From a virus, in the IMG/VR virus record IMGVR_UViG_3300020428_000072, positions 1 through 25,744 of that record: 25,744 nucleotides of DNA; one strand, given 5' to 3'. Of the stretch, positions 607 through 23,543 are shown piece after piece. Both the position numbers and the translations under genes were made by a program. A model generated the notes under the pieces. That model made no database searches and was not told the origin of the DNA. It worked only from the letters and a program-made list of their open reading frames with translations. How positions within the stretch are numbered: the stretch's first letter is position 1; each line of letters begins with the position of its first letter.

Positions 607-860
607 GCGAAGCAGAAGGAGTAATGAAGTTTGAGTCTCAAGTACCAAAGCATACTCTAGTCAACATTACTGTTGATAGAATGGGATTAATTGTTATGAT
701 AAGTGCTGCTCATAAGGCAATGCAACAAGTTGATGCTTTTAATCTTGGTGATGACCTAGATACTGATGTAACACCATTCCATGATATGAGAGATACTCTC
801 ATCCAACAGTATGAAGAAGTATTTAAAGATGAGGATTATAAGTCCCATCTTGATCTCTGA
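603..860 (+). CDS. Hypothetical protein, 85 aa
   Basis: The ATG at 603 overlaps the upstream stop as ATGA. An in-frame TTG at 588 gives a slightly longer frame and is less likely. The product is acidic. It has a hydrophobic beta segment (VNITVDRMGLIVMISAAHKA) followed by a charged C-terminal helix with many Asp and Glu. It directly precedes an oxygenase-like gene, whose ATG shares the final A of this TGA. No recognised motif; function unknown. Confidence 0.65.
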   Translation: MSEAEGVMKFESQVPKHTLVNITVDRMGLIVMISAAHKAMQQVDAFNLGDDLDTDVTPFHDMRDTLIQQYEEVFKDEDYKSHLDL

Positions 861-1345
861 TGCATATTGTACTAGAATGTGAGAGGGATATCACAGAATA
901 CTTTGAACAGTGGTTAAAGTATTTTATGGTACGTAGTGAGTTTTATCGAGATGAGACTTACAGTTCTCTATCAGAAGATTGCTTTGCTACTGTTAACATT
1001 CTAGGTGTTGTAAAAGATCCTGTGTTTGATGAATACATTGCGTATTTGAAGGACATAGTTGAGGCAGTAAGTTCTAAGAAAATGACTTATCATTACTTAC
1101 ATTTGGTAAGTTATGATGCTGGTGGGTATATGTCTCGCCATAGTCATGACCATAATGAGGACTTCTCATTTATTCTTTATCTCAATGATTGTAAGGATGG
1201 TGTAACTGTCTTACATTATGATGATATTGAAGAACATATACTACCAAAGAGGAATAAGATTCTGGTGTTTACTTCCGACACTGAGCACTCAGCAAAATTC
1301 TCTGATTCTAAAAAAATACTTGTCGGTGGACTAAAACTACAGTAA
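860..1345 (+). CDS. 2OG-Fe(II) oxygenase-like protein, 161 aa
   Basis: A probable Fe(II)/2-oxoglutarate dioxygenase of the compact phage type. A His/Asp cluster at residues 94-98 (RHSHDHNED) precedes a beta strand (FSFILYLND). The distal region has His143 (TEHSAK) and Lys152 within KKILVGGL, where the family normally has a 2OG-binding Arg or Lys. The order H-D/E...H...R/K fits a double-stranded beta-helix, but which residue is the HxD/E acid is unclear (D97 or E100). If active it would hydroxylate a protein or small molecule. The TGATG junction with the upstream gene implies coupling. It is the first of nine oxygenase-like genes here. Confidence 0.7.
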   Translation: MHIVLECERDITEYFEQWLKYFMVRSEFYRDETYSSLSEDCFATVNILGVVKDPVFDEYIAYLKDIVEAVSSKKMTYHYLHLVSYDAGGYMSRHSHDHNEDFSFILYLNDCKDGVTVLHYDDIEEHILPKRNKILVFTSDTEHSAKFSDSKKILVGGLKLQ

Positions 1346-1347
1346 CT

Positions 1348-1536
1348 ATGAAAGAAGAAACTGCTGCTGAGAAGTGGGATCGTGGAAAGACTTTAATGTT
1401 AGAGTCTTTATACAAACCAGATACTAAACTCAGAGGTTGTGCTCACAACCAAGGGTGTTATGATGAACTAATGAAAGTTCGTGATTTAGTAGTAGAATAT
1501 GTAAGGACTTTAGAAGATGTACAAAGCACTACCTGA
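1348..1536 (+). CDS. Hypothetical protein, 62 aa
   Basis: A small, largely helical protein rich in Glu and Lys, with one Cys pair spaced by six residues (GCAHNQGC). It starts two bases after the upstream stop and its 3' end overlaps the SET-domain gene by 20 bases. No family recognised. It may be an adaptor or simply one of the many small cyanophage accessory proteins. Confidence 0.6.
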   Translation: MKEETAAEKWDRGKTLMLESLYKPDTKLRGCAHNQGCYDELMKVRDLVVEYVRTLEDVQSTT

Positions 1537-1810
1537 TTGTTTACACGTTAAAGATAGTCCTATTGCAGGTCAAGGACTATTTGCTACACAGGATATACCA
1601 GATGATGTTTATCTTGGCATATCACATGTAGTGGTGGATGAAGAGATTATGAGAACTCCTTTAGGTGGGTTTGTAAATCATAGTGAAGATCCAAACTGTG
1701 TTAAAGTATTTGAAGAAGAGGAGTGGGGTAAGATATATCATATGAGAACCATTAAAGATATAAAGAAGGGTGATGAACTATTCCTGAAGTATACTTTTTA
1801 CAATGTCTAA
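1517..1810 (+). CDS. Minimal SET-domain protein, probable protein lysine methyltransferase
   Basis: A compact SET domain making up nearly the whole 97-residue protein. The SET order is present: an N-terminal GQGLFATQDI segment (residues 18-27, the G-x-G SAM-binding start), NHSEDPNC (54-61, the NHS-x-x-PNC core) and GDELFLKYT (85-93, matching the G-E-E-L-x-x-x-Y end with its catalytic Tyr). Known SET proteins transfer methyl groups from SAM to lysine; small viral versions exist. The zinc-binding pre- and post-SET regions are absent, so this is the bare domain. It overlaps its neighbours by 20 and 8 bases and sits just ahead of the oxygenase/radical SAM chain. The substrate could be a virion or host protein, which is inference. 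Confidence 0.82.
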   Translation: MYKALPDCLHVKDSPIAGQGLFATQDIPDDVYLGISHVVVDEEIMRTPLGGFVNHSEDPNCVKVFEEEEWGKIYHMRTIKDIKKGDELFLKYTFYNV

Positions 1811-1955
1811 AGCATCTCAATTTATACTTAATTTCCTTTTAAGTGAGGAGATTACTAGTAAACTTAGATCTAAAGCAGAGAGTGAAGGAATAGATATGCT
1901 AGATCTTAAGAGAACTAGGAAGAGTGTGATAAATTATTTGGAGGAGATGTCATGA
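1803..1955 (+). CDS. Hypothetical protein, 50 aa
   Basis: The ATG at 1803 overlaps the SET gene's stop, and the TGA at 1953-1955 overlaps the next ATG (ATGA). The product is a charged helical peptide (LLSEEITSKLRSKAESEGID, then LKRTRKSVINYLEEMS) with no membrane segment. The exact fit between two stop/start overlaps is the main evidence that it is a real gene. Function unknown. Confidence 0.65.
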   Translation: MSKASQFILNFLLSEEITSKLRSKAESEGIDMLDLKRTRKSVINYLEEMS

Positions 1956-2503
1956 TATATACTGATGATTACGATGGTCCTTATTTAAAGAAGTTTGCTA
2001 TACCATTCTATCATACTAAGATAGAGAATTGGGATATTAAAAGATTAAAGTTAGATGAGATATTTGATGCTCATAAGCATCATATGACTACAGATGGTGA
2101 TCAACTCACTGATTACGATACTAATAGACAATATCATTTTTTGCTTGAAGGAATTCTTATGGATGATCTCATAAGAGTTAAGAAGGTTTTTGGTATAGAG
2201 AAACAAATTAGGATAAACTCTGCATGGTTCCAGCAATATAATAGAGCACATTCTCATCACGTACATAATCATGGATTTGGTGGATTTAGTTCAGTATTAT
2301 ATCTTAGATTTGATCCAGCATATCATAGACCAACCACATTTGTTGCTCCTTTTTTAAATAACTTTGATGGTAATGTATTTGAGTATATACCACCAGAGGT
2401 TGAGGAAGGGGATCTAATAGTATTCCCAACATCTTTAGCACATTATGTACCAGTCAATACGTCTGATGTTGAGAGAAGAATACTATCAATGAATATGAAC
2501 TAA
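1952..2503 (+). CDS. 2OG-Fe(II) oxygenase family protein
   Basis: A 183-residue protein with the hallmarks of the phage 2OG-Fe(II) oxygenase family. Residues 105-107 are an H-x-H followed by GFGGFSSVLYL (compare H-x-H...SGVYYL in that family). A GDLIVFPTSLAHYV segment at 153-165 carries the distal His164, and an Arg pair at 175-176 lies in the strand that binds 2-oxoglutarate. It should couple 2OG decarboxylation to hydroxylation of an unknown target. It is joined by overlapping stop/start codons to the 50-aa gene upstream and to the first radical SAM gene downstream, so oxygenase and radical SAM enzyme are probably made together. Confidence 0.8.
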   Translation: MIYTDDYDGPYLKKFAIPFYHTKIENWDIKRLKLDEIFDAHKHHMTTDGDQLTDYDTNRQYHFLLEGILMDDLIRVKKVFGIEKQIRINSAWFQQYNRAHSHHVHNHGFGGFSSVLYLRFDPAYHRPTTFVAPFLNNFDGNVFEYIPPEVEEGDLIVFPTSLAHYVPVNTSDVERRILSMNMN

Positions 2504-3321
2504 TGATTAAAGTACCTCATGAGTTCCAGTTACATGTAACCCATTCTTGTAATTTAACTTGTGAGGGTTGCACACACTATATGAATCAGGGTCATAGTGG
2601 AAGTATAACACTAGAAGATGCTGATGAGTGGATGAGTAATTGGAATAGAAAAGTTGTACCTAAGAGATTTACTCTAATGGGTGGTGAACCTTCACTTCAT
2701 CCAAAGTTAGGGGATTTTGTGCTGCTTGCTAGAGAGAAGTTTAAACATTCAGATATTGAGATTGTTAGTAATGGATTCTTTTTACATAATCATCCAGATT
2801 TATGGAAGATATTAGTAGATACTGGAACAGTATTAGGTGTATCTGTTCATAGTCAAACTGATGATGTATATGTGGAGAAGTTTAAACCTGTATATAATTT
2901 AATGAAGGAGTGGATTAAGAAAGGTGCAAGGGTAGAATTAAGACCATCTATTGTTAACTGGCAGAGACAGTATAAAGGATATGGAGATAACATGGAACCA
3001 TATGAAGATGGTGATCCAGTATCTAGTTGGTCTAATTGTGTATCTAAGTTGTGTGTTCAATTATATCAAGGTAAACTATGGAAGTGTCCTGGTTTAGCAT
3101 ACCTACCTTTACAGGCAGAGAAGTATGATTTATCTGATAAGTGGGATCTATATTTAAAGTATAGACCACTGGATAAATATTCTACAAAAGCAGAGATTAA
3201 AAAGTTTTTTTATCGTAAGGCAGAGATATATTGTAGCATGTGTCCTGCTAAGGTAGAATCTTTTAAACCAGAAGATCCACTTCTACCTGTATCATATTGG
3301 AAAAGAAAATATGAAAATTGA
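2503..3321 (+). CDS. Radical SAM protein with C-terminal auxiliary-cluster cysteines (copy 1)
   Basis: The 272-residue protein has the radical SAM signature C-x3-C-x2-C at Cys16, Cys20 and Cys23 (CNLTCEGC). A GGEP motif at 60-63 contacts the SAM methionyl group. C-terminal cysteines (C179, C184, C195 in GKLWKCP, and C244/C247 in CSMCP) resemble a SPASM/Twitch-type auxiliary iron-sulfur cluster, as found in enzymes that modify peptides or carbohydrates. Reaction and substrate cannot be read. It is clearly paralogous to the protein at 5244-6071; C179, C195 and the CSMCP pair are conserved in both, while C184 is not. TAATG upstream and an 11-base overlap downstream put it inside a coupled operon with oxygenase-like genes. 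Confidence 0.88.
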   Translation: MIKVPHEFQLHVTHSCNLTCEGCTHYMNQGHSGSITLEDADEWMSNWNRKVVPKRFTLMGGEPSLHPKLGDFVLLAREKFKHSDIEIVSNGFFLHNHPDLWKILVDTGTVLGVSVHSQTDDVYVEKFKPVYNLMKEWIKKGARVELRPSIVNWQRQYKGYGDNMEPYEDGDPVSSWSNCVSKLCVQLYQGKLWKCPGLAYLPLQAEKYDLSDKWDLYLKYRPLDKYSTKAEIKKFFYRKAEIYCSMCPAKVESFKPEDPLLPVSYWKRKYEN

Positions 3322-3970
3322 TTGGCAACCACCAATACATGATGATCCTAGAATTGTAGAACATTTTGATTTTTGTGGTAATACGATTTATAGAGCATAT
3401 AATTTATTGAGTCCATATGTTAGGAATCAATTGGTAGAGGAGATTGAGGATGAATTGGAACAGCATGAGGATAAATGGGATAGGTGTACTGAAGTTACTA
3501 ATCACTTGGTTAATAGGAAGTTGTGGCATATGCAATCTTGGAGATTATTCTTCAAATTAATTAAAAAGCATCTGTATGATTATTCTAATCTAGTTGGTGA
3601 TGATAGTCTGAAGAAACTTCAAGTTGCTTCATGCTGGGCAAAAAGAATGAAGGGTGTAACTCAGAAATTATATGATAATCAACTATACATAAACTATGGT
3701 AACACACATAAGCATGAATATTTTAATCTTGGAATGATATATTATCTCAGGAATCCTTCTAGAATCTATGGTACACTTATAGAGAATGATAATAGGGAGA
3801 TAATTATTCCAGGTGATGAGAATTCATTGTTGATACATCATTCAGATATTAATCATCAACCAGTTAATCCAGAACCATTGGTTGCTGAGAACTATTATAG
3901 GTGTGTTCTAGTCATTGACTTTATTGATCCACTTAAGTTAGAATACTTCAAGAAAAGAAATGCCGAGTAG
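3311..3970 (+). CDS. 2OG-Fe(II) oxygenase-like protein, 219 aa
   Basis: The second half looks like a double-stranded beta-helix. H133-K-H135 is followed by EYFNLGMIYYLRNP, then IPGDENSLLIHHSDINHQPV with distal His182, and Arg197 in a final strand (YYRCVLVIDFI). This pattern resembles the family of the protein at 1952-2503 but is more diverged, so activity is less certain. The first 110 residues are charged and helical with no recognised motif. It overlaps the radical SAM gene by 11 bases and the next gene by 11 bases. Confidence 0.6.
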   Translation: MKIDWQPPIHDDPRIVEHFDFCGNTIYRAYNLLSPYVRNQLVEEIEDELEQHEDKWDRCTEVTNHLVNRKLWHMQSWRLFFKLIKKHLYDYSNLVGDDSLKKLQVASCWAKRMKGVTQKLYDNQLYINYGNTHKHEYFNLGMIYYLRNPSRIYGTLIENDNREIIIPGDENSLLIHHSDINHQPVNPEPLVAENYYRCVLVIDFIDPLKLEYFKKRNAE

Positions 3971-4199
3971 TTTTGAACGCATAATGCATATCACTGTCCT
4001 TAACAAGATTAAGGATAAAGATATATCCAGTTTATCTGGTGATGAACTTGACTGGTTAAAGAGTAGACCAGACATTATGAATGTTGTTACTGAAGCAGCA
4101 AAGTATAATAGACGAAGAGATGATTTCTATTATAATGATGTTATCTCTGGTACTATAGAAGAGATTTTAATTGATCTAGATTTACAATCAGATGTATAA
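3960..4199 (+). CDS. Hypothetical protein, 79 aa
   Basis: A small, mixed-charge, mainly helical protein wedged between two oxygenase-like genes with overlaps at both ends. It has no Cys and no membrane segment. Visible features are a Lys/Asp-rich N-terminal half, a basic patch (KYNRRRDDFYY) and an acidic C-terminus (EEILIDLDLQSDV). As the smallest protein inside the radical SAM cassette it is the obvious place to look for a substrate or carrier peptide, but nothing in its sequence shows a leader/core structure. Confidence 0.65.
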   Translation: MPSSFERIMHITVLNKIKDKDISSLSGDELDWLKSRPDIMNVVTEAAKYNRRRDDFYYNDVISGTIEEILIDLDLQSDV

Positions 4200-4740
4200 G
4201 AAATTAAACGAGGAATGGCAGATAAATCATCTTATCAAAAGTGGTAAGAAGATAGAGTATGGTATTGATACACCAATAGGATTTGCTGGAATTAGATATT
4301 CATATGTTCAGACAAAACAAGAGAATGAACTACTTCAAGTAATACCATCAAGGTATAGAGATAAGTGTACTCTATCATTAATGGAAGTTAATCATAAGAT
4401 ACCTGCACATACTGATAGTGGCATTGAAGCAATAATTAATTTTTATATTAGAACTGATAGGATGCGTACTCAGTTCTATCATCCAAGAGATGATGTTGAG
4501 ACTGTTCAAATTGCTAACCAAACTGATGGTGCAATATTCCATGATAAGTATCTTAAGAAGTCTAGTAGATTCATGGCACATCCAGGAGAGGCATATCTTT
4601 TGAATGTATCACATCCACATGCACTGATACCATCACAGAAAGGTCCAATAAAGAGAACAGCAATTTGTATGCAGTTACTTGATACAAGTTGGAGTGAAGC
4701 AATAGATATGTTAAAAGAGACGGGGTACATTGATGATTGA
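4192..4740 (+). CDS. 2OG-Fe(II) dioxygenase-like protein, 182 aa
   Basis: Residues 73-75 are H-T-D in a context typical of the iron site (KIPAHTDSG). His141/His143 (NVSHPHAL) and Arg155 (RTAICMQL) follow at the spacing expected for the distal His and the 2OG-binding Arg. The arrangement resembles aspartyl/asparaginyl-hydroxylase-like beta-helix proteins. The target is unknown. The first 60 residues have no recognised motif. The start at 4192 lies in an 8-base overlap with the upstream gene, and the stop overlaps the next ATG by 8 bases. Confidence 0.7.
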   Translation: MYKKLNEEWQINHLIKSGKKIEYGIDTPIGFAGIRYSYVQTKQENELLQVIPSRYRDKCTLSLMEVNHKIPAHTDSGIEAIINFYIRTDRMRTQFYHPRDDVETVQIANQTDGAIFHDKYLKKSSRFMAHPGEAYLLNVSHPHALIPSQKGPIKRTAICMQLLDTSWSEAIDMLKETGYIDD

Positions 4741-5251
4741 GATAATTGATGATTATCTAGCAGAACATGAGCATCGCCATATTCATGATTATTTTACAGG
4801 AGCAATGGATGATGGTACTCTTAACAATTCTTGTGCTTGGGTGTACATACCATTTACATCAACCGATTGGACTGCTAATGGTGAGAGGTTCCACTTCGCT
4901 CAAATAATATATGCACAACATCAAATAATTAGTTCTGCATTTAATCTAATGACTCCTATCATTAAACGTGAGAAGATGACTGCTATTGCTAGGATCAAAG
5001 CAAATTGTGTTATGAGAACTAGTGAGTTGGATGTTTATGATGATGAATTTCATACAGATTTTACAGGTACTTTAACTACAGGAATCTATTATATAAATTC
5101 AAATGATGGATATACATTATTTGAAGATGGTACTAAATGTGAGAGTAGAGCAAATAGATTTTGTAGATTCCCATGTGAGACAAGACATACAGCAACTACA
5201 TGTACTAATACAAATCGTAGGTTACTGATCAACTTTAATTACCATGCATGA
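4733..5251 (+). CDS. 2OG-Fe(II) oxygenase, 172 aa
   Basis: A well-formed 2OG oxygenase: H107-T-D109 (EFHTDF), a strand GIYYINSNDGYT, a loop FEDG, distal His152 (ETRHTATT) and Arg162/163 (NRRLLINFNYH). This H-x-D...H...R order with the YYINSNDG strand is characteristic of phage prolyl-hydroxylase-like proteins. The ATG at 4733 was preferred to an in-frame TTG at 4730 because it is the only ATG near the upstream stop. The gene ends in an 8-base overlap with the second radical SAM gene, repeating the oxygenase-then-radical-SAM order seen at 1952-3321. Confidence 0.82.
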   Translation: MIEIIDDYLAEHEHRHIHDYFTGAMDDGTLNNSCAWVYIPFTSTDWTANGERFHFAQIIYAQHQIISSAFNLMTPIIKREKMTAIARIKANCVMRTSELDVYDDEFHTDFTGTLTTGIYYINSNDGYTLFEDGTKCESRANRFCRFPCETRHTATTCTNTNRRLLINFNYHA

Positions 5252-6071
5252 CATTGAGCAGTTAGAGTTACACGTTACCCATGCATGTAATTTTACTTGT
5301 GAGGGATGTTCGCACTATTCTAATCATGGTCATTTTGGTAATATATCATTAGATGATATAGAGAATTGGTTGTATGCTTGGAGTGAGAGGATAAGACCAA
5401 AGACATTAACTATACTTGGTGGAGAACCAACATTAAATAAGGATTTGCCTGAGATTGTTTATATGGTTAGGGCAATATACCCTGATCCTTTTACTCATAT
5501 AGATGTTATATCCAATACAACTGGATTACATCTACATCCTACATTACCACAGATGCTTCTAGCAGCAGGTGCTACTCTAGCAGTATCAATCCATAGTAAA
5601 GAACATCCAAATTATATCAAGAAGTTTAAGAGTGGGTATCAACTTGCTAAACAATGGAAGAATGACCTTGGTGTGACTGTGGAGTTCTGGGATACTAATA
5701 AGGAATGGGTTAGACAATACAAAGGATTTGGTGATACAATGATGCCATTCGAGGATAATAATCCTAGGAAGAGTTGGGAGGTTTGTATCTCAAAGTATGC
5801 GATGCAGTTGCATGAGGGTAAACTATGGAAGTGTCCAGCATTGGCATATTTACCCATGCAAGCAAAGAAGTATAATCTATCAGAGAAGTGGGAACCATAC
5901 TTAAAGTATAAACCATTGGATGTGGATTGTACTGATGATGAACTGGAAGAGTTTTTAAATAGAGAGGATGAATCAACTTGTTCAATGTGTCCAATGAATC
6001 GTGATGTATATACCAAACCTGATCCAACATTACCTGTAAGTCATTATGAGAAACTATACGGAAGAGTATAA
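5244..6071 (+). CDS. Radical SAM protein with C-terminal auxiliary-cluster cysteines (copy 2)
   Basis: The 275-residue paralogue of the protein at 2503-3321; aligned by eye they share roughly half their residues. C15-x3-C19-x2-C22 (CNFTCEGC) binds the SAM cluster, and GGEP follows about 40 residues later. The C-terminal block repeats QYKGFGD, GKLWKCPALAYLP and CSMCP. Of copy 1's extra cysteines, the one before Q-L-x-x-G-K-L-W (C184) is Ala here, so the auxiliary cluster probably uses the conserved positions only. Reaction unknown; the architecture is that of peptide- or sugar-modifying radical SAM enzymes. Its 3' end overlaps the SGNH-like gene by 26 bases. Confidence 0.88.
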   Translation: MHDIEQLELHVTHACNFTCEGCSHYSNHGHFGNISLDDIENWLYAWSERIRPKTLTILGGEPTLNKDLPEIVYMVRAIYPDPFTHIDVISNTTGLHLHPTLPQMLLAAGATLAVSIHSKEHPNYIKKFKSGYQLAKQWKNDLGVTVEFWDTNKEWVRQYKGFGDTMMPFEDNNPRKSWEVCISKYAMQLHEGKLWKCPALAYLPMQAKKYNLSEKWEPYLKYKPLDVDCTDDELEEFLNREDESTCSMCPMNRDVYTKPDPTLPVSHYEKLYGRV

Positions 6072-6786
6072 TCTCTTTAAACTTAATCACCCATTTATAA
6101 ATCTCTTTAGTATCAGTAATAGACCTGAGACTAAAGACTGGTATGATCAGGATACTAAAGAACGTGCTAAGAAGAATTATACTCCTGAGTGGAAGTATGC
6201 TACCAAACGTGTAGAGTATCATGTTAATTCTGATGGTTATCGTACAAAGGAATGGTCTAAGATTCACTGGAAGAAATCTATAATTGTATTGGGATGCTCC
6301 TATGTGTATGGTGTTGGTGTTGCTGAAGATGAAACTATATCACATCAATTAGAGGATATAACAGGTCATCCTGTAATCAACATGGGTGTACCTGGATCTT
6401 CACCAACATTTACAATACATAATCTCTCATGTTTATTGTCACGATATAATCCCAAGGGTGTGGTGATTGGATGGCCTGGATCTGGTAGAGCACCATACTA
6501 TTCTGATGAGGTAATTCATTGTGGTAATTGGGCAAAGGATGTTGCAGGTATGGGATTAGCATGGAGATATAATAAGAGTCATGGTGAGATAACTTCTCAT
6601 CTGTGCAGACAGATTGCTCAACAGTTATGTCATGATACATCATATGCTGACTTCACTCTCTTTAGGGATAACCAGATAGGTGCAGAGTACATACCACAAG
6701 TGGATTATGGTAGAGATATGGCACATGCTGGGTGTGAGACTTATAACAACGTAGCAGAGTATGTTGCTGGACAATTGGTATTATGA
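6046..6786 (+). CDS. SGNH/GDSL-hydrolase-like protein, 246 aa
   Basis: The strand IIVLGCSYVYGVGV (nucleophile Ser85) matches SGNH block I. VINMGVPGSSP supplies the block II Gly, IGWPGSGR sits where block III is expected, and D224-M-A-H227 fits the catalytic Asp-x-x-His pair. A preceding NSDGYRTKEW segment also occurs in SGNH-like proteins. Such enzymes remove or transfer acyl groups on polysaccharides and lipids. Block III lacks an obvious Asn, so activity is not assured. It ends the radical SAM/oxygenase cassette, hinting at a glycan or acylated substrate, which is inference. No signal peptide is visible, so it should act in the cytoplasm or on virions. Confidence 0.7.
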   Translation: MRNYTEEYNLFKLNHPFINLFSISNRPETKDWYDQDTKERAKKNYTPEWKYATKRVEYHVNSDGYRTKEWSKIHWKKSIIVLGCSYVYGVGVAEDETISHQLEDITGHPVINMGVPGSSPTFTIHNLSCLLSRYNPKGVVIGWPGSGRAPYYSDEVIHCGNWAKDVAGMGLAWRYNKSHGEITSHLCRQIAQQLCHDTSYADFTLFRDNQIGAEYIPQVDYGRDMAHAGCETYNNVAEYVAGQLVL

Positions 6787-8054: not shown

Positions 8055-8422
8055 TGGCAAAGATCTATGAGTCTCCTGATGGTGGCAAGACTGTCTACGT
8101 GAGGGATACTGATACTCCAGACAAAGAGAGGGAACTCTTATTTGATTATAAGTTGATGGATGCTGAATTACAAGCAAACTCACCTTATAATGATGGGTGG
8201 ACTCAAGAGATGTATCGTGAGTATGCATTAGAGCGTAGACAAGAATTGCAGATGCCTCAAGTTGAAGAGGAACTTTGGCCCGTGTGGATCAAGATGAATC
8301 TAACTGAGGAAGCAATGGAGAGATATGGTAGTTGGAAGGCAATGCAAGATGATGGTTGGGAATTGACTGAGGATGGGTTCTGGATAAATGACGGATCTAG
8401 AAAGGTGCTAAATAAAGAATAA
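8054..8422 (+). CDS. Hypothetical protein, 122 aa, Trp-rich
   Basis: A soluble acidic protein whose second half is rich in Trp (ELWPVWIKMN, YGSWKAM, DDGWELTEDGFW). The N-terminal part looks like a small beta hairpin (GKTVYVRDTD). No catalytic signature. It ends 17 bases before the first collar-like gene and just ahead of a late-promoter-like motif, so it probably closes the talC transcription unit. Confidence 0.7.
   Translation: MAKIYESPDGGKTVYVRDTDTPDKERELLFDYKLMDAELQANSPYNDGWTQEMYREYALERRQELQMPQVEEELWPVWIKMNLTEEAMERYGSWKAMQDDGWELTEDGFWINDGSRKVLNKE
8408..8414 (+). promoter_or_regulatory. T4-type late-promoter-like motif CTAAATA
   Basis: CTAAATA lies 25 bases before the ATG at 8440. The same heptamer precedes the starts at 9620 and 20858, each at one of the few non-overlapping gene junctions. 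It resembles the T4 late -10 element TATAAATA. Assignment is by similarity and recurrence. Confidence 0.45.
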
Positions 8423-8439
8423 AGGAATAACATTATACA

Positions 8440-9006
8440 ATGTCGGCAATTCTTACAGCGACGGGTGTCACCTTTGGTGATTCTACCTCGTTAAATTCTA
8501 AATACGCTGTGGTAGAGCAGGGTGCTGCTATGGTATTCTTCCAAGCAGCAGCTCCGACTGGATGGGTTAAAGAGAACGCACATAACGATAAAGCATTACG
8601 ACTTGTTAATGGTACTGGTGGTGGATTTGGTTTTGGTGGTACGTCGGGTGCAGGAGGGTTGACCTTCTCACAAGTATTCCCAAATGCTACATCTTCATTG
8701 GCAGTACCTTTTAGTGCGACTACAACTGTAACAGGTAATGTTGGTGGTACTACCCTAGCAATCTCTCAGATACCTGATCATACTCACAACTCACTCACTG
8801 GTGGTGCTGCTAGTGCTTCGGGTGGTGGTGCTAACTTCAGGGTTACGGGTAGTGCTCCTACTGGTAATGTTGTATCTCCTAGTGGACAGATAGGTCAACC
8901 ACATGATCACCCCTTCAGTGGACAAGCAACATTTACTGCTAATGGTGCAGGTCAGATTGATCTACGACTTCAGTATGTTGATGTACTAATATGCACATTT
9001 AGTTGA
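8440..9006 (+). CDS. Tail-collar/short-tail-fibre-like protein (copy 1), 188 aa
   Basis: The N-terminus ATGVTFGDSTSLNSKY is typical of cyanophage fibre proteins. It is followed by a collar-domain segment (AMVFFQAAAPTGWVKE then NDKALRLVNGTGGG). Gly/Ser/Thr-rich beta sequence carries H-x-H-type clusters (PDHTHN and PHDHPFSG), like the metal-binding histidines of T4 short tail fibre gp12. The C-terminus (LQYVDVLICTFS) matches the neighbouring paralogue. It is probably a virion surface protein involved in adsorption or baseplate decoration. It is much shorter than gp12, so it is more a knob module than a whole fibre. It is probably expressed late. Confidence 0.8.
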   Translation: MSAILTATGVTFGDSTSLNSKYAVVEQGAAMVFFQAAAPTGWVKENAHNDKALRLVNGTGGGFGFGGTSGAGGLTFSQVFPNATSSLAVPFSATTTVTGNVGGTTLAISQIPDHTHNSLTGGAASASGGGANFRVTGSAPTGNVVSPSGQIGQPHDHPFSGQATFTANGAGQIDLRLQYVDVLICTFS

Positions 9007-9007
9007 T

Positions 9008-9589
9008 ATGGCAAGATTAACTGCGAATGGGATACAATTTGATTTAGCAGATGCTAATAACTCCATTAATTCATATTATTGGATGTATCCTGCTGGTACG
9101 CAGAAATTGTTTTGGGAAGCATCTGCACCACCAGGATGGACTCAGATAACAGATGCGTCTGTTAATAATAAAGCACTTAGAGTAGTGACTGGAACTGGTG
9201 GTGGAGCAACCGCAGGTAGTTTTAATTTCACTACAGTCTTATCAACTACTGCTAACATAACAATTACAGTAAACAATACAGAGAATATTGTACCACCTCC
9301 AGGTATACCAAAGGTGGTTGGTGACCATACCTTAACAGTAGCAGAGTTACCAGAACACCAACATGTTCATACTTTGGGACCTACTGGAGGATCATCTGCT
9401 ACACCATTTAGTAATACTGGTGCTAGAGTTATTGATGGATCAACTAATACTAGTGGAGTATTAGAAGGAGCAGGTGGAGGTCCACATGATCATCCCTTTA
9501 GTGGTGATTGCACTATTCAAGGTACATATCAAGCATCTTCTAACTTGGCAGTTCAATACCTTGATGTTATAATGTGTAAACTGGATTAA
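9008..9589 (+). CDS. Tail-collar/short-tail-fibre-like protein (copy 2), 193 aa
   Basis: A paralogue of the preceding gene, starting two bases after its stop. Shared blocks are ANGIQFDLADA, KLFWEASAPPGWTQI, NNKALRVVTGTGGG, LPEHQHVHTLG, GPHDHPFSG and LAVQYLDVIMCKLD. The H-x-H-x-H cluster and the HDHP motif are candidate metal ligands, as in T4 gp12. The central Gly/Thr-rich part has diverged, as expected for receptor-facing fibre domains. The tandem arrangement suggests a duplicated decoration or fibre-tip protein, perhaps assembling together with copy 1. Confidence 0.8.
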   Translation: MARLTANGIQFDLADANNSINSYYWMYPAGTQKLFWEASAPPGWTQITDASVNNKALRVVTGTGGGATAGSFNFTTVLSTTANITITVNNTENIVPPPGIPKVVGDHTLTVAELPEHQHVHTLGPTGGSSATPFSNTGARVIDGSTNTSGVLEGAGGGPHDHPFSGDCTIQGTYQASSNLAVQYLDVIMCKLD

Positions 9590-11386: not shown

Positions 11387-11565
11387 TTATGGAATCTTTT
11401 GTTATAGAATTAAAAGTAGGTGATAAGATTGACGTTGGTAAGTTTAGAAACGTTAGAACAGTTATCACTGATATAAGTTTGGATGATCATGGGCAACCAG
11501 TAGTTCATACGGATAAGGGTGAACGTAAAGCATTGGCGTTCAGACTTAGAAAGTTAGATGTATAG
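11383..11565 (+). CDS. Small beta-barrel-like hypothetical protein, 60 aa
   Basis: Alternating hydrophobic residues (VIELKVGDKIDVGKFRNVRT then VVHTDKGERKALAFRLRKL) suggest a small SH3/KOW-like barrel with basic faces. The ATG at 11383 overlaps the upstream stop; a second ATG at 11389 is possible. The stop overlaps the next oxygenase gene by 8 bases. Function unknown. Confidence 0.7.
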   Translation: MIMESFVIELKVGDKIDVGKFRNVRTVITDISLDDHGQPVVHTDKGERKALAFRLRKLDV

Positions 11566-12211
11566 TATACTCCAACCATTCGGTCCCATGATATATCATG
11601 GGCAATGCTCAGAAGAATTTTTAAAGTTCCTTAATGAATCATTAGATCCTACAAGGACAGAAGCAGAGAATATGTCACATGTTCTTGCAGGTAATATTAG
11701 TGAACAGTATAAATTGATTGGTACACCACAAACATTTGTGGATCATGTGTATCCACATGTTTTTGCATATGTCGCAGCATGTCATGAGAGACATAATGCA
11801 TCTGTTCTTGATCCTGCTGCTGGTGGATCTGGAGAAGTGGTACAGGAGATTCACTTTACTATGCCTGTAGCACCTTGGATTAATTATCAAAAGAAGTATG
11901 AGTTTAATCCATTGCATATGCATGGTGGTGAGTTGAGTGCTGTTGTAATGGTGGATATACCAAAAGAGATTGAGGAATTTTACTATGAGTCGCATGGCAC
12001 TACTAATATGCCAGCAGCAGGTCTATTAGAATTTGTTGATGGTAAGGGTGGATATATGTATTCTGGGTCACATAAGGTAGTACCTAAAACAGGTGACTTC
12101 TTTATCTTCCCTGCTGACTTAAAGCATGGAGTATATCCATTTAGTGTGGATGTAGAACGTATTAGTTTATCCTTTAATATTTCTGGTGTGGAAGTCAATC
12201 CTGATAAGTGA
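11558..12211 (+). CDS. 2OG-Fe(II) oxygenase family protein (tandem copy 1), 217 aa
   Basis: H120-M-H122 lies in PWINYQKKYEFNPLHMHGG and is followed by LSAVVMVDIP. The distal part has KTGDFFIFPADLKHGVYP with His190, and Arg201 is in the final strand (VERISLSFNI). This is the same family as the protein at 1952-2503 and is plainly paralogous to the next gene: both begin with PFG-x-MIYH and share LAGNI, PWINYQK and FPADLKH. Predicted to hydroxylate an unknown target in the infected cell. A beta-strand insertion (residues 143-172) distinguishes it from the shorter family members. Confidence 0.82.
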   Translation: MYSILQPFGPMIYHGQCSEEFLKFLNESLDPTRTEAENMSHVLAGNISEQYKLIGTPQTFVDHVYPHVFAYVAACHERHNASVLDPAAGGSGEVVQEIHFTMPVAPWINYQKKYEFNPLHMHGGELSAVVMVDIPKEIEEFYYESHGTTNMPAAGLLEFVDGKGGYMYSGSHKVVPKTGDFFIFPADLKHGVYPFSVDVERISLSFNISGVEVNPDK

Positions 12212-12232
12212 GGAAGTGCTAATAATATATCT

Positions 12233-12251
12233 TTATGATATAATATATAAT
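12233..12251 (+). promoter_or_regulatory. Candidate promoter with TGATATAAT and a second TATAAT
   Basis: The gap 12212-12272 contains TTATGATATAAT (extended -10, TATAAT at 12239-12244) and another TATAAT at 12246-12251, 21 to 28 bases before the ATG at 12273. The 12-mer is identical to that at 6781-6792. No clear -35 box. Confidence 0.4.
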
Positions 12252-12272
12252 ATACAAAAGTAGTAGGCATTT

Positions 12273-12944
12273 ATGCTCTGGTTTGATAAAGAACATTGCG
12301 TTGATAAATGCATATTGCATCCATTTGGGTCAATGATTTATCATACTCAAATACAATCTGAATTCTTAGGATTATTGCAGAATACAGCAAAGGAGTCTAA
12401 AGATAATGGAAAGGATAGAGGTAATACCCTTGCAGGTAACATAGCATCTCAACGACAGGCAGTGGTTGATGTAGAACAGTTTATGGATCTATTGTATCCT
12501 CATGTTTTGCATTATGCGAGAACATGTTATAATAGACTCGAAACTAATTTAACAGGTAAACCATCAAACCCAGTTCCTAACATCAAGTTGCATCTTGGTG
12601 ATGGTCCTTGGATCAACTATCAAAAACAGGGTGAGTTTAATCCTGTTCATGCACATGGAGGAATCCTTAGTGCTGTTGTTATGATAGATGTACCAGAGGT
12701 GATTGCTACAGAAGCAGATAACCTTGACTATCAAACTAATATGCCATGTCCAGGTCAACTAGAGTTCATTAATGGACCTACTGGTTGGTTAGAGACAGGA
12801 ACATTTAGAGTCGTTCCTAAGACAGGAGATATATATCTATTCCCTGCTGATCTTAAACATTGCGTGTATCCATTTACCAGTGATGTTGAACGAGTTACTA
12901 TGAGTTTTAATGTATTTGACATAGAGAAGGTCTATGATGAATGA
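12273..12944 (+). CDS. 2OG-Fe(II) oxygenase family protein (tandem copy 2), 223 aa
   Basis: A paralogue of the preceding gene with the same motif order: PWINYQKQGEFNPVHAHGG (H126-A-H128), LSAVVMIDVP, KTGDIYLFPADLKHCVYP (His196) and Arg207 in VERVTMSFNV. The N-terminus is about ten residues longer and has a different first segment (LWFDKEHCVDKC). Iron-site residues are intact, so both copies are probably active, perhaps on different positions or targets. It has its own candidate promoter and overlaps the bifunctional gene downstream by 11 bases. Confidence 0.82.
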   Translation: MLWFDKEHCVDKCILHPFGSMIYHTQIQSEFLGLLQNTAKESKDNGKDRGNTLAGNIASQRQAVVDVEQFMDLLYPHVLHYARTCYNRLETNLTGKPSNPVPNIKLHLGDGPWINYQKQGEFNPVHAHGGILSAVVMIDVPEVIATEADNLDYQTNMPCPGQLEFINGPTGWLETGTFRVVPKTGDIYLFPADLKHCVYPFTSDVERVTMSFNVFDIEKVYDE

Positions 12945-14127
12945 AAAATTAACAGAGAACAATTATCTTATTGTTCCTAACTTTATCTCTAATGAGAGAG
13001 CATCAGCATTATCAGAAGACTTTAATGAGTATGCTGTGACTCATGATATAAAGAATGATCCTCAAGTGGATAAGTGTCTTGGTAAGTATGATTATATCTC
13101 GTTTGTAGAGTTATTATGTGAGAAGAATGTGCAGGTATCTCAACTGGTTGGTGAGACTGTGCTACCAACATATACTTACGCAAGGATATATGAGAAGGGT
13201 GCAGTTCTAACTCCACATGTTGATAAGGAAGAGTGTGAGATATCAATAACAGTTAATCTTGAGTGTGATACACCTTGGTCAATATGGATACAGACACCTA
13301 AAGGTGAGAAGAGAGAGGTGAAGTTGAATCCTGGCGATGCTATGATATACTTTGGTATGACTGCACCGCATTGGAGAGATGCGTTTAAAGGTAATGCATG
13401 TACTCAAGTCTTTATGCACTATGTTAGAAGCAGAGGACAGTATGCCACATTTTATTTTAATAAGGATCGTAAGGTCATGACAGATAGTATGCGACCAGTA
13501 CATAAAGCACCACTATATGCTGAACCAGCAAATGTTATAATCTCAGAGGACTTTAATACACCAAAGAGTAAAAGTCTCGACGAGTATGTGAAGGTGTATG
13601 ATAATATATTATCTGATGAAGAGTGTGATAAGATATTAGCAGAGTATGGTGACTGTAGTGACTGGTATGATGCTATGGTTGGTAATGGTGATACTAAGAA
13701 TAATGTTAGGAACTGTGAGATAGTACACATATCAACAACTGATATAGTTAATAAGAATTTTGATAGAAGGAAGGAGATTGATAACATAGTTTTTAATAAA
13801 GCAGGAGTCGCAGCACAGAGATATATTGAAGAGTTCCCTATGTGTACTATTAGTACTGACAGTGGGTATGATCTCTTGAGATATAATCAAGGTGGATTCT
13901 ATACCATACACACAGATAATTATAGTAAGAGTCCAAGGACAGTCTCTATGTCATTGATGTTGAGTGATGATTATGAGGGTGGTGAGTTTGCATTTTTTGA
14001 GAGAGATATGATAATTAAACCTTCTAAAGGATCTGCTGTAGTCTTCCCTTCTAACTTTTTGTATCCACATGAGATCATGCCAATTCTCTCTGGAACTAGA
14101 TATAGTATCATAACTTGGTTCACATAA
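12934..14127 (+). CDS. Two-domain 2OG-Fe(II) oxygenase, 397 aa
   Basis: Two complete oxygenase modules lie in one chain. Domain 1 (about 1-170) has H95-V-D97, GDAMIYFGMTAPHW with His146, and a strand TQVFMHYV where the 2OG-binding basic residue is not obvious. Domain 2 (about 210-397) is a classic prolyl-4-hydroxylase-type fold. It has H326-T-D328 (YTIHTDNY), SLMLSDDYEGGEFAFF, KGSAVVFPSNFLYPHE with His379, and Arg389 in TRYSIITWF. The two halves are too different to be a recent internal duplication, so a fusion of two families is more likely. Start 12934 or 12937 (ATGATG). It overlaps the upstream oxygenase gene, making three oxygenase genes in a row. Confidence 0.85.
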   Translation: MMNEKLTENNYLIVPNFISNERASALSEDFNEYAVTHDIKNDPQVDKCLGKYDYISFVELLCEKNVQVSQLVGETVLPTYTYARIYEKGAVLTPHVDKEECEISITVNLECDTPWSIWIQTPKGEKREVKLNPGDAMIYFGMTAPHWRDAFKGNACTQVFMHYVRSRGQYATFYFNKDRKVMTDSMRPVHKAPLYAEPANVIISEDFNTPKSKSLDEYVKVYDNILSDEECDKILAEYGDCSDWYDAMVGNGDTKNNVRNCEIVHISTTDIVNKNFDRRKEIDNIVFNKAGVAAQRYIEEFPMCTISTDSGYDLLRYNQGGFYTIHTDNYSKSPRTVSMSLMLSDDYEGGEFAFFERDMIIKPSKGSAVVFPSNFLYPHEIMPILSGTRYSIITWFT

Positions 14128-20857: not shown

Positions 20858-22195
20858 ATGGCACTGAGATTAAACGAGGAGCATCAATTTACTGGTAGTG
20901 GATTGGGATACCAAATGTCATCATATGCTTTGATGAGGTCATTATGTAACCGATCAGGGTTAAAGTATGCTGCTGGTAAGTTTGAGTTGCTTGCACTTAA
21001 GAATACTTTTGAGTCATTAGAGATTGATGAAGAAGCACATGATAAGATGGTAGCACCAGAGATATTAAGACAGGGTAGAAGGACATTTAGTGATGATACA
21101 CCAATAGATGAGGACATTGTAATAGAATTTTTGGATCAGGAACAGTTTGAGGATATAATACCAAGAGCGAAGGATGGTGGTATATTATTTGGGTATCCAA
21201 CACCAATTAATAGTATTGATACAACACAGATAACAGATATTAAAAAGCATTTTACATATAGAGGTGACATCCAAGACATATGTAAAGCATGGAAGCAAAA
21301 GATGTTTGGTGATACTCCTGTAATCTCTATGCATTTTAGGAGAGGTGACTTCACTGAGATCTCAAGTGGCATGTTCTTAATTGATGATGATTATTATATT
21401 GATGCACTTAAGCAAATGCCTGATGGTTTGCCAGTGCTAATCTTTACTAATGATAAGGATTATATCTTAAACAATCCTAAGTGGCAGAGTGATAGGTTCA
21501 CTTTGGTTACTGATCTAAGCAATGATAATAATATGATTGATTGTGAATGGATGCAGATGATTGATGAGATTATTGATGAGTCTGGTATGGGTAGATTCTA
21601 TTACAAGATGGCAATGATGTTAGCATCACAGAGAACTGGTGTACCTGTTCAACAAATTGCTAAGGAACTTGCACCAGCAGGTAAGAAGAAGATAAAGAAT
21701 AATTGGTATAATTATTCATTCGACCATTGTATGATGCATTTGTGTGATTATCATATAATGGCAAACAGCACCTATGGTCTATGGGGTGTTGAGATGTCAA
21801 ATAGTAAGAAGGTAGTGTATCCTAAGTATTGGATGCAAGAGGATATTCATGGTGATGAGAGTCTTGCTCAACGTATTAAAGACTTTAATGCTGACGAACC
21901 TGGTTCATTCTCAAATTGGGTCAACAAAGACTCACTTGCAGCAACAACAGAACAAACTATTGATTCAAAGATAGATGATGCTAGTGGTAAAAAGCAATGG
22001 ACACATACTTTAAAACCAGACATGAATGGTTTTGACCAGACTGCGACTATCGCTGGTCATTTTATAAATGATAAGTGGGTGGGATTAGATAATCCAGATC
22101 AACGTGCATTTACATTTGTCAAGATGCCTACAGTATCATCTGACGACTTTAATCCATTCATAGATAATAGTGTTCCATTACCACATGAAAAATGA
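20858..22195 (+). CDS. GT11-type fucosyltransferase-like glycosyltransferase with C-terminal extension, 445 aa
   Basis: The N-terminus GSGLGYQMSSYALMRSL corresponds to GGLGNQMFQYA of alpha-1,2-fucosyltransferases (GT11). H159-F-R161-R162-G-D164 is the nucleotide-sugar motif H-x-R-R-G-D. LCDYHIMANSTYGLWGVEMS matches the family's D-F-x-L-M...NSTFSWWGA end. The substrate is probably GDP-fucose or a similar GDP-sugar. Residues beyond about 360 are a polar extension (HTLKPDMNGFDQTATIAGHF) of a type not usual for GT11, maybe a binding or virion-anchoring domain. It may decorate fibres or modify the host surface. A late-like promoter precedes it. Confidence 0.85.
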   Translation: MALRLNEEHQFTGSGLGYQMSSYALMRSLCNRSGLKYAAGKFELLALKNTFESLEIDEEAHDKMVAPEILRQGRRTFSDDTPIDEDIVIEFLDQEQFEDIIPRAKDGGILFGYPTPINSIDTTQITDIKKHFTYRGDIQDICKAWKQKMFGDTPVISMHFRRGDFTEISSGMFLIDDDYYIDALKQMPDGLPVLIFTNDKDYILNNPKWQSDRFTLVTDLSNDNNMIDCEWMQMIDEIIDESGMGRFYYKMAMMLASQRTGVPVQQIAKELAPAGKKKIKNNWYNYSFDHCMMHLCDYHIMANSTYGLWGVEMSNSKKVVYPKYWMQEDIHGDESLAQRIKDFNADEPGSFSNWVNKDSLAATTEQTIDSKIDDASGKKQWTHTLKPDMNGFDQTATIAGHFINDKWVGLDNPDQRAFTFVKMPTVSSDDFNPFIDNSVPLPHEK

Positions 22196-22299: not shown

Positions 22300-22495
22300 A
22301 CGAGGAGAGCGATTAGTAAAGTCTTATCTAATTGCTATTACAGAATTAACAAAACAAACACGATTAAATAAAGCACAGATCGGTGCTAAAGCATTAGCAG
22401 GATTCTTAAAGGCATGTGTTGATGAGTGTGATAGTCTTACATACAAATCTACGCAGGAGTTATATAAAATAGCAGATGAGATAGAGAATGAGTAA
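22292..22495 (+). CDS. Conserved cyanophage-type hypothetical protein, 67 aa
   Basis: MTERGERLVKSYLIAITELT and KQTRLNKAQIGAKALAGFLK, then CVDECDSLTYKSTQEL, form a compact helical protein with basic and acidic faces, of a type I recall in marine phages. The ATG at 22292 has GAGGAG eight to nine bases upstream; an ATG at 22286 (two residues longer) is too close to it. The TAA overlaps the methyltransferase ATG by 8 bases. Confidence 0.72.
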   Translation: MTERGERLVKSYLIAITELTKQTRLNKAQIGAKALAGFLKACVDECDSLTYKSTQELYKIADEIENE

Positions 22496-23543
22496 GAATT
22501 CTAAAGCACATTATTCTACTGCGTTAAAAGAATTCCAAACACTTAAAGGTTCTCATAATTTAGAATATTATTATGATGGATTGGATGGTTTGATGGAGGA
22601 TCATGCACGTAATAGATTTTATGATGAGATTTTAAAAGATTGTAAAGGGAAGCGTTGTGTTGATGTTGGTGCTGGTAGTGGATTACTAGCATTTTTGGCA
22701 TTGAAGCATGGTGCTAAGGAAGTTATATGTTTTGAACAGAATACTGCATCTGCAAATCATATTGAGCAATGTAGGAAGAAGATGATGATAAGTGGTGATA
22801 GATTATCAGTAATAAATGATGAGTTTAGAATAAGTAGATGGAATAGAGGAGAGTATGATCTTGGTGATAATATTGATGTTCTATTCCATGAGATTATGGG
22901 TAGTTACATATGGAATGAATTGATGTTGAATACATTTGATGAGGAGATTAATCAAGAACACCCATGTTTTATTCTTCCTAGTCATTATCATTTAAAATTT
23001 AGTGTCGTTGCTCCTAACGTACAATTATATCGTCAACTAATTGATTATCAACATGATCTATGTAAAGATAAGGATTTAGTACAAGGAAAACCTGGCGATT
23101 ATAAGGAGTGGGAGTTTGAATTGGATACTGGTGTGGATATTGGTCAGGAGTTTATTGATTATTATAAGACGGTGAGACATAATCGTAGGTTTGAGATTTT
23201 ATCTCCATTTAAACTGAAGACTATTCCAAATTGTAAGTTGTTGGATACTCTTCATGCTAAGTCAAAGACTATTCATAGTAGTAGTGTTGATATAAATGAT
23301 CGGAGTTCCCTATTTAATATAACATTTGATCTACCTCAGATTAATAGTGGTTATTTAATAATGATACGACCATCATGTAGTGATCTAAGGAATAGTATTG
23401 TATTTGATTTTAAGGATAGTACATCATTTACTGGGTATGGTTCACCAATAGTTGTACCACCACCAAAAGAATATAATTTTAGGAGATTTACGTTCAGTCT
23501 GTTTAATAAAATAATGCAGATAGATGAGCATGGTATCTACTGA
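22488..23543 (+). CDS. Protein arginine methyltransferase (PRMT)-like methyltransferase, 351 aa
   Basis: Residues 27-48 (YYYDGLDGLMEDHARNRFYD) match the PRMT N-terminal YF-x-SY...HEEMLKD-x-xR segment. Motif I is VDVGAGSGLLAF (58-69), and FEQN (82-85) supplies the acidic ribose ligand. E135 and E144 (HEIMGSYIWNE) have exactly the nine-residue spacing of the PRMT double-E loop that holds the guanidinium. A C-terminal beta-rich half follows, though no THW loop is visible. Family members methylate arginine in proteins with SAM. In a phage next to glycosyltransferases it may target virion or host proteins. TAATG and TGATG overlaps tie it to both neighbours. Confidence 0.82.
   Translation: MSKNSKAHYSTALKEFQTLKGSHNLEYYYDGLDGLMEDHARNRFYDEILKDCKGKRCVDVGAGSGLLAFLALKHGAKEVICFEQNTASANHIEQCRKKMMISGDRLSVINDEFRISRWNRGEYDLGDNIDVLFHEIMGSYIWNELMLNTFDEEINQEHPCFILPSHYHLKFSVVAPNVQLYRQLIDYQHDLCKDKDLVQGKPGDYKEWEFELDTGVDIGQEFIDYYKTVRHNRRFEILSPFKLKTIPNCKLLDTLHAKSKTIHSSSVDINDRSSLFNITFDLPQINSGYLIMIRPSCSDLRNSIVFDFKDSTSFTGYGSPIVVPPPKEYNFRRFTFSLFNKIMQIDEHGIY

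Follow-up and report, generated by a model that had tools for sequence, protein, structure and literature searches.

A fibre-adjacent gene cassette of T4-like cyanophages that may modify hydroxyl groups on a sugar or glycan

Background

Groups of tailoring genes have been described in cyanophages before. In the jumbo cyanophage S-SSM6a, carbamoyltransferases, a halogenase and 2-oxoglutarate- and iron-dependent (2OG-Fe(II), hereafter 2OG) dioxygenases form a cluster for which capsule decoration or the production of a secondary metabolite was proposed (Iyer et al. 2021, PMC7824862), and the genome of S-SCSM1 encodes 24 2OG oxygenases (PMC9602691). Another phage carbamoyltransferase makes 5-carbamoyloxymethylcytosine from hydroxymethylcytosine, together with a thymidylate-synthase-like dCMP hydroxymethylase partner (MetaGPA, PMC8670742). 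Regarding the radical S-adenosylmethionine (SAM) enzymes, BtrN carries out a two-electron oxidation of the aminocyclitol 2-deoxy-scyllo-inosamine, and four Cys bind its auxiliary cluster; in MoaA three Cys hold the auxiliary cluster and there is no net oxidation (PMC9012708). Here we analyse a block of genes at positions 860-6786 of the IMG/VR virus record IMGVR_UViG_3300020428_000072, whose whole length of 25,744 bases is our window. The genes of the window are cyanophage-like, among them a transaldolase, a heme oxygenase and several 2OG oxygenases. An earlier examination of the letters alone (the sequence-only reading) had outlined the block with the correct coordinates and gene order, and had found no function to name for it. 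This overstates the novelty, as comparable clusters in cyanophages had been published in 2021 (PMC7824862).

We give about an even chance to the explanation that in T4-like cyanophages the block serves as a tailoring cassette beside the fibre genes, modifying hydroxyl groups on a sugar or glycan. It is built on the family or fold of most of the enzymes, the gene order, the location on the fibre side and the glycosyltransferases that accompany the radical-SAM family, and from these we infer the substrate, the order of the reactions and the destination of the product.

Results

Layout and conservation of the cassette

The block consists of twelve open reading frames (ORFs) on the + strand, where TF1, TF2, the CTAAATA motif and the glycosyltransferase at 20858..22195, all treated below, also lie, in the order OXa, s62, SET, s50, OXb, rSAM1, OXc, s79, OXd, OXe, rSAM2 and SGNH. 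The sequence-only reading had counted eleven genes, overlooking an ORF of 50 amino acids (aa) at 1803-1955. Its overlapping stop/start codons do exist: of the eleven junctions only one has a gap, of 2 nt, and the other ten overlap. Nevertheless, 31 of the 49 forward-gene junctions across the window overlap as well, therefore overlap is the background of this genome and we ruled it out as the sign of a special operon: the block is a compact polycistron. Compared with nearby relatives, dN/dS was around 0.05-0.4 for every gene of the cassette, which means that they are under purifying selection.

In order to find relatives, virus contigs were searched with both radical-SAM proteins, and this gave 73 loci. 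Thirty-five of them extend across the cassette, and by shared 12-mers 22 count as distinct; the counts over these 22 are biased, because the radical-SAM genes were the bait. OXa, rSAM2 and SGNH were each present in all 22 distinct loci, OXd in 19, OXb and rSAM1 in 17 each, and OXe and a carbamoyltransferase treated below in 16 each. OXc was called as an ORF in 20, and tblastn showed an intact copy in L007, L009 and L010, where no such call had been made. Conservation of the gene order in related phages had been proposed as a check by the sequence-only reading, and the order is indeed fixed across the 22 distinct loci, always adjoining fibre-like genes; the phages that keep the block are numerous and come from oceans as well as lakes. 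A second search, which used the fibre protein TF1 as bait and partly removes the bias of the first one, gave 38 loci in which TF1 was a close match and no less than 4 kb of upstream sequence was available (a redundant set, many being the same contigs), and SGNH was present in 37 of them and rSAM2 in 33; three of the exceptions were contigs starting inside the preceding gene. Furthermore, when protein distances are compared, those of the cassette genes, of both TF1 and TF2 and of an upstream gene correlate with those of rSAM2 (r 0.50-0.91, the value for OXe being 0.50), and none of 500 permutations reached such values. These correlations fit inheritance as one genome region, although alone they are no proof of a joint pathway.

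Among 50,697 phage records, OXc and SGNH had no tblastn match and the radical-SAM proteins had two distant matches only; with OXc and SGNH matching none of these records, culture-based work appears to have missed this cassette. A contig titled Rhodobacteraceae bacterium NAT185 (a GTDB species genome; L102, 3771-11145) has the whole cassette, with the order OXa, SET, OXb, OXc, s79, OXd, OXe, rSAM, SGNH. Its title assigns it to a metagenome-assembled genome of the Rhodobacteraceae; we rejected a bacterial origin and read it as a probably mis-binned phage contig.

The two radical-SAM enzymes

Both radical-SAM genes of the sequence-only reading were confirmed, as rSAM1 (2503..3321, 272 aa) and rSAM2 (5244..6071, 275 aa) match PF04055 with 47.8 and 46 bits respectively, the cut-off being 29.5. 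The two twitch-type proteins are 47% identical and fall into two separate supported clades of the tree, so the paralogues are old and probably non-redundant. Seven Cys are invariant in the alignment of 47 diverse members (47/47). In rSAM1, Cys16, Cys20 and Cys23 form the CxxxCxxC of the SAM cluster, and Cys179, Cys195, Cys244 and Cys247 of the C-terminal twitch region would hold one predicted auxiliary 4Fe-4S cluster. There is no eighth invariant Cys among the 47 members. Radical-SAM epimerases use a Cys as hydrogen donor, and the lack of a further invariant Cys thus means that there is no conserved donor of this type.

The profile search placed SpeY (7wzv, the name being taken from the title of the PDB entry) first, over the full length, with a value of 6.8e-17, and the four Cys of the auxiliary cluster align with Cys of SpeY. 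The AlphaFold model of rSAM1 (predicted local distance difference test, pLDDT, 93.7) agrees with this, since chains of SpeY were the top four Foldseek matches (E 3.9e-12, TMq 0.66), and BtrN had rank 10. As best we can infer from the sequences and the model, both enzymes would be twitch dehydrogenases of an alcohol.

Two other assignments were examined and rejected. The NCBIfam prokaryotic viperin model is the top family for rSAM1, which would suggest a viperin-like antiviral enzyme; however, it covers only the core, and its scores of 45.5 and 33.4 bits stay below the cut-off, which is 180. Regarding a pathway for ribosomally synthesised and post-translationally modified peptides (RiPPs), all the maturase models were far below their cut-offs and the cassette has no precursor-like small ORF. 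Moreover, the CxxxCxxC begins at residue 16, which leaves no room for an N-terminal RiPP recognition element.

The oxygenases

Five oxygenase-like proteins had been listed by the sequence-only reading, and four of them are now supported, two by Pfam, one by PHROG and one by its predicted fold, whereas the fifth (4192-4740) keeps motif evidence only. OXa (860..1345, 161 aa) matches PF13640 with 27.4 bits (cut-off 27) and has conserved His94, His96, His98, His143 and Lys151. OXb (1952..2503, 183 aa) matches PF13759 with 37.8 bits (cut-off 27) and phrog_81 at 3.5e-32, with His105-x-His107, His164 and Arg175. OXe (173 aa), annotated at 4730..5251, starts either with the TTG at 4730 or with the ATG at 4733; it matches phrog_274 at 1.3e-35, PF13640 being below cut-off, and carries His108-x-Asp110, His153 and Arg164. 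The label of phrog_274, DNA endonuclease V, was rejected because the conserved residues are of the 2OG oxygenase type. By family match and conserved residues, OXa, OXb and OXe are thus assigned to the 2OG-Fe(II) oxygenase superfamily.

OXc (3311..3970, 219 aa; His133-x-His135, His182, Arg197) had no match to a Pfam or PHROG family. Its AlphaFold model (pLDDT 84) matches 2OG-oxygenase structures in Foldseek, for example FtmOx1, PHD2 and the uncharacterised 2rg4 and 3bvc, and by this predicted fold it is assigned to the same superfamily. It adjoins rSAM1 in most loci and is also found in unrelated phage contexts (L068-L075). OXd (4192..4740, 182 aa) is oxygenase-like by an HxD..H..R motif that includes His73-x-Asp75. 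Family support was found in none of 16 members and there was no structure match, so that its nature as an oxygenase, suggested by the motif, is unproven. When the profiles of OXc and OXd were compared with those of the other oxygenases, no match emerged. The sequence-only reading had named absent iron sites as fatal to its shared pathway, and actually four of the five proteins keep their His/Asp sites, one of them with a confirmed fold, while in some members of OXd the His/Asp are lost.

Three more 2OG oxygenases lie downstream of the fibre genes, at 11558-14127 of the window. Two of them are paralogues matching PF13759, and the third, OXh, is longer and matches PF13640; OXh is kept at its place downstream of the fibre genes in many relatives.

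Carbamoyltransferase, SGNH protein and small ORFs

Most relatives have a gene of 471-480 aa between rSAM2 and SGNH that is an O-carbamoyltransferase, matching PF02543 with 133 bits and PF16861 with 166 bits. The nearest proteins in the PDB are carbamoyltransferases, including decarbamoylnovobiocin carbamoyltransferase, GdmN and TobZ. A split carbamoyltransferase was seen in one locus (L004).

The SGNH/GDSL-type protein (6046..6786, 246 aa) carries Ser85 and Asp224-x-x-His227. The sequence-only reading had recognised an SGNH protein by a GCS...DxxH motif; the Ser/Asp/His triad (S85, D224, H227) is invariant in 27/27 members, and so is N112, although the family scores are weak: no curated family is above cut-off and the best scores are around 16 bits.

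The minimal SET-domain protein (1517..1810, 97 aa) was also recognised correctly, with PF00856 at 46.5 bits against 22.4, over the C-terminal half of the profile only, and phrog_28741 at 5e-55. Nevertheless, it is a passenger and not part of the core, because it occurs in 7 of the 22 loci and in P-SSM7 sits elsewhere, after nrdB (NC_015290, 164245-164544). The window shares this minimal protein with two phages of Prochlorococcus, P-SSM7 and P-RSM6, and with one of Pelagibacter. Regarding the small ORFs, s62 (1348..1536, 62 aa) is present in 19 of the 22 loci, s79 (3960..4199, 79 aa) in 20, and s50 (1803..1955, 50 aa) in the same 7 loci as SET. Their alignments are conserved throughout, with no variable RiPP-like core in any of the three; an unlinked precursor would be possible.

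The fibre locus and its borders

The downstream border of the locus is TF1 (8440..9006), a small fibre-tip-like protein 48% identical to the tail fiber protein of S-SCSM1, and a second fibre-tip-like protein, TF2 (9008..9589), follows it in 20 of the 22 loci. Both have HTH and HxHP motifs and resemble metal-binding phage fibre tips. The motif CTAAATA is a late-promoter motif of T4-like cyanophages. It stands at 8408..8414, before TF1, and in the same position in 11 of 30 distinct cases; in contrast, it was absent before rSAM1 (0/34), rSAM2 (0/41), SGNH (0/41) and the carbamoyltransferase (0/26). Transcription of the cassette seems to start further upstream, and may come before that of the fibres.

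The upstream border in the relatives consists of a long fibre, a restriction/methylase-like protein and then a uvsW-like helicase. In L020 (3729-6896) and L032 (2693-5841) the protein between long fibre and uvsW-like helicase has around 1055 aa and combines a helicase with an Eco57I-type methylase, possibly a phage restriction or modification enzyme.

Distant relatives carry other genes at this fibre locus. Four 2OG oxygenases occupy it in S-SCSM1 and L222-L226, whereas in L215, L219-L221 and L227-L228 OXh is followed by GT25-like genes, DegT, a 2OG oxygenase, an amidinotransferase and a carbamoyltransferase. Tailoring genes thus recur at the locus, in at least three versions. In L219 (11217-19003), L227 (12606-18232) and L003 (12134-18887) we observed several GT25-like genes, a short DegT, a 2OG oxygenase and an inosamine-type amidinotransferase by the fibre genes or OXh, and in L219 and L227 also a carbamoyltransferase. 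Together these genes recall the set needed to build an aminoglycoside.

Glycan genes around the radical-SAM family

Bacterial homologues were collected at around 45-55% identity to the radical-SAM member of a further locus, L063. Among the 56 neighbours of these homologues there were nine GT2, three GT25, three NodZ, two sulfotransferases, one DegT and one UDP-sugar dehydrogenase. In phages, the homologue of S-SCSM2R lies among glycosyltransferases, DegT and an amidinotransferase, and in L068-L075 the radical-SAM gene and OXc stand beside GDP-mannose dehydratase, GDP-fucose synthase and GT11. A glycosyltransferase-like neighbour in L063 was recognised by eye, with no Pfam match.

The window has a GT11-like glycosyltransferase of its own at 20858..22195, outside the conserved cassette (phrog_2644 at 1.4e-28, PF01531 below cut-off). 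Further downstream are a 351-aa methyltransferase with weak PRMT5 and Cons_hypoth95 similarity (22488-23543), which has no relative in the virus loci anchored on the radical-SAM genes, and a second sugar-transferase-like protein, GT11/NodZ-like by eye only (23543-24544). Another type of island, in L064 (5000-19400) and also in L066, L067 and L077, has several radical-SAM genes, including a B12-binding one, and TauD-like and other 2OG oxygenases; it also holds an SGNH-like protein and UDP-sugar genes.

Discussion

In the chemistry that we propose, the 2OG oxygenases would hydroxylate or further oxidise the substrate. Each of rSAM1 and rSAM2 would cleave SAM to give a 5'-deoxyadenosyl radical, which would abstract hydrogen from the carbinol carbon, and the second electron would pass to the auxiliary 4Fe-4S cluster, the alcohol becoming a ketone as in BtrN. 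The O-carbamoyltransferase would cap a hydroxyl in most relatives, not in the sub-clade of the window, and the SGNH protein would remove or transfer an ester. The product would most likely be placed on the phage fibre or on a surface glycan. The sequence-only reading had left a virion protein, a small peptide or a surface glycan as targets. The glycan is the strongest of these and the peptide is weak, because the radical-SAM proteins are nearest to SpeY and BtrN rather than to peptide maturases and their relatives sit with glycosyltransferases.

Several points weigh against a glycan-modifying cassette. There is no glycosyltransferase within it, that of the window being 14 kb downstream, and several rhizobial homologues have no obvious glycan neighbours. 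Neither the window nor its closest relatives have the carbamoyltransferase. The similarity to SpeY and BtrN amounts to 17-18% identity and TM ≤0.66, which supports fold and class, not substrate. Moreover, oxygen-needing oxygenases and oxygen-sensitive radical-SAM enzymes are together in one operon, and these phages are not known to carry a fibre glycan.

The enzymes could instead act directly on side chains of the fibre proteins, by hydroxylation, alcohol oxidation and carbamoylation, with no glycan involved. The cassette adjoins TF1 and TF2, the four 2OG oxygenases of S-SCSM1 lie in the same place between helicase and tail fibre, and OXc resembles prolyl hydroxylases, among other 2OG enzymes. 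However, the radical-SAM proteins are far under all the peptide-maturase cut-offs and match sugar-type dehydrogenases, the nearest solved carbamoyltransferases act on small molecules, and the cassette genes lack the late-promoter motif found before TF1; we therefore consider this unlikely. A small-molecule product would suit the nearest known enzymes, SpeY, BtrN, TobZ and GdmN, all from antibiotic pathways, and a metabolite was one of the options of Iyer and colleagues for the cyanophage carbamoyltransferase cluster (PMC7824862). Nevertheless, a diffusible secondary metabolite, such as an antibiotic-like sugar released in infection, gives no reason for the strict linkage to fibre genes, and neither a scaffold-forming enzyme (cyclitol synthase, nonribosomal peptide synthetase or polyketide synthase) nor an exporter was seen in the cassette, which makes it quite unlikely.

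The locus might also be an insertion hotspot gathering unrelated metabolic genes with no joint pathway. HNH, talC and SET are present in some loci and missing from others, some relatives have OXe replaced or duplicated, and S-SCSM1 by itself encodes 24 2OG oxygenases (PMC9602691). We regard this as very unlikely, because OXa, rSAM2 and SGNH keep a fixed order in all 22 distinct loci, OXc is intact even where no ORF was called, the distance correlations are strong and rSAM1 and rSAM2 are separate orthologous groups. Finally, hypermodification of phage DNA, with the carbamoyltransferase acting on hydroxymethylcytosine, seems highly improbable. 2OG oxygenases can act on bases, and a phage carbamoyltransferase of this kind exists, as described in MetaGPA (PMC8670742), but in that pathway there is no part for the two radical-SAM enzymes to play. 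The PF00303 partner was found in none of six virus records of 80-247 kb with the cassette or radical-SAM relatives, records that are possibly incomplete.

The glycan explanation can be carried further, to receptor-binding fibres of uncultured cyanophages that bear a coat of antibiotic-like sugar. This sugar would be hydroxylated, oxidised by the paired SpeY/BtrN-type dehydrogenases, O-carbamoylated and, in sister lineages, guanidinylated, so that fibre chemistry as well as sequence would shape the host interaction; this extended version has a slim chance. If true, a virus would carry out sugar chemistry of the antibiotic type, which would be unusual. The fixed partnership of SpeY/BtrN-type radical-SAM enzymes, carbamoyltransferase and SGNH by the fibres makes it testable, as an oxidised, carbamoylated sugar would be expected on fibres or host glycans.

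Comparison with described systems

With SpeY and BtrN, of spectinomycin and butirosin biosynthesis, the cassette enzymes share CxxxCxxC, the four Cys of the predicted auxiliary cluster and the overall fold, and these are their best profile and fold matches; however, the cassette enzymes are phage-borne, always accompanied by 2OG oxygenases and usually present as two paralogues per operon. The carbamoyltransferase of MetaGPA has the same PF02543 and PF16861 in a phage, but no thymidylate-synthase-like partner was found here. At the locus of S-SCSM1 (MK867354), where four 2OG oxygenases separate the helicase from the tail fibre, the genomic place is the same, the fibre protein is related and one oxygenase is related to OXb, whereas radical-SAM, carbamoyltransferase and SGNH genes are lacking at that place. 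S-SCSM2R (PQ898602) shares a radical-SAM protein of 40% identity, 2OG oxygenases and adjoining relatives of OXh and of the gene after TF2. Nevertheless, it has a single radical-SAM gene, and glycosyltransferases, DegT and an amidinotransferase replace the block of OX, rSAM and SGNH genes. The cluster of S-SSM6a is likewise from a cyanophage and combines carbamoyltransferase with several 2OG oxygenases, but the term 'radical SAM' is absent from the text that describes it (PMC7824862), and our cassette has no halogenase that we could see and keeps a fixed order beside TF1 and TF2. Therefore, cyanophage clusters of carbamoyltransferases and oxygenases were already known, and the radical-SAM pair, the SGNH protein and the fixed fibre-side order are a new variation on them.

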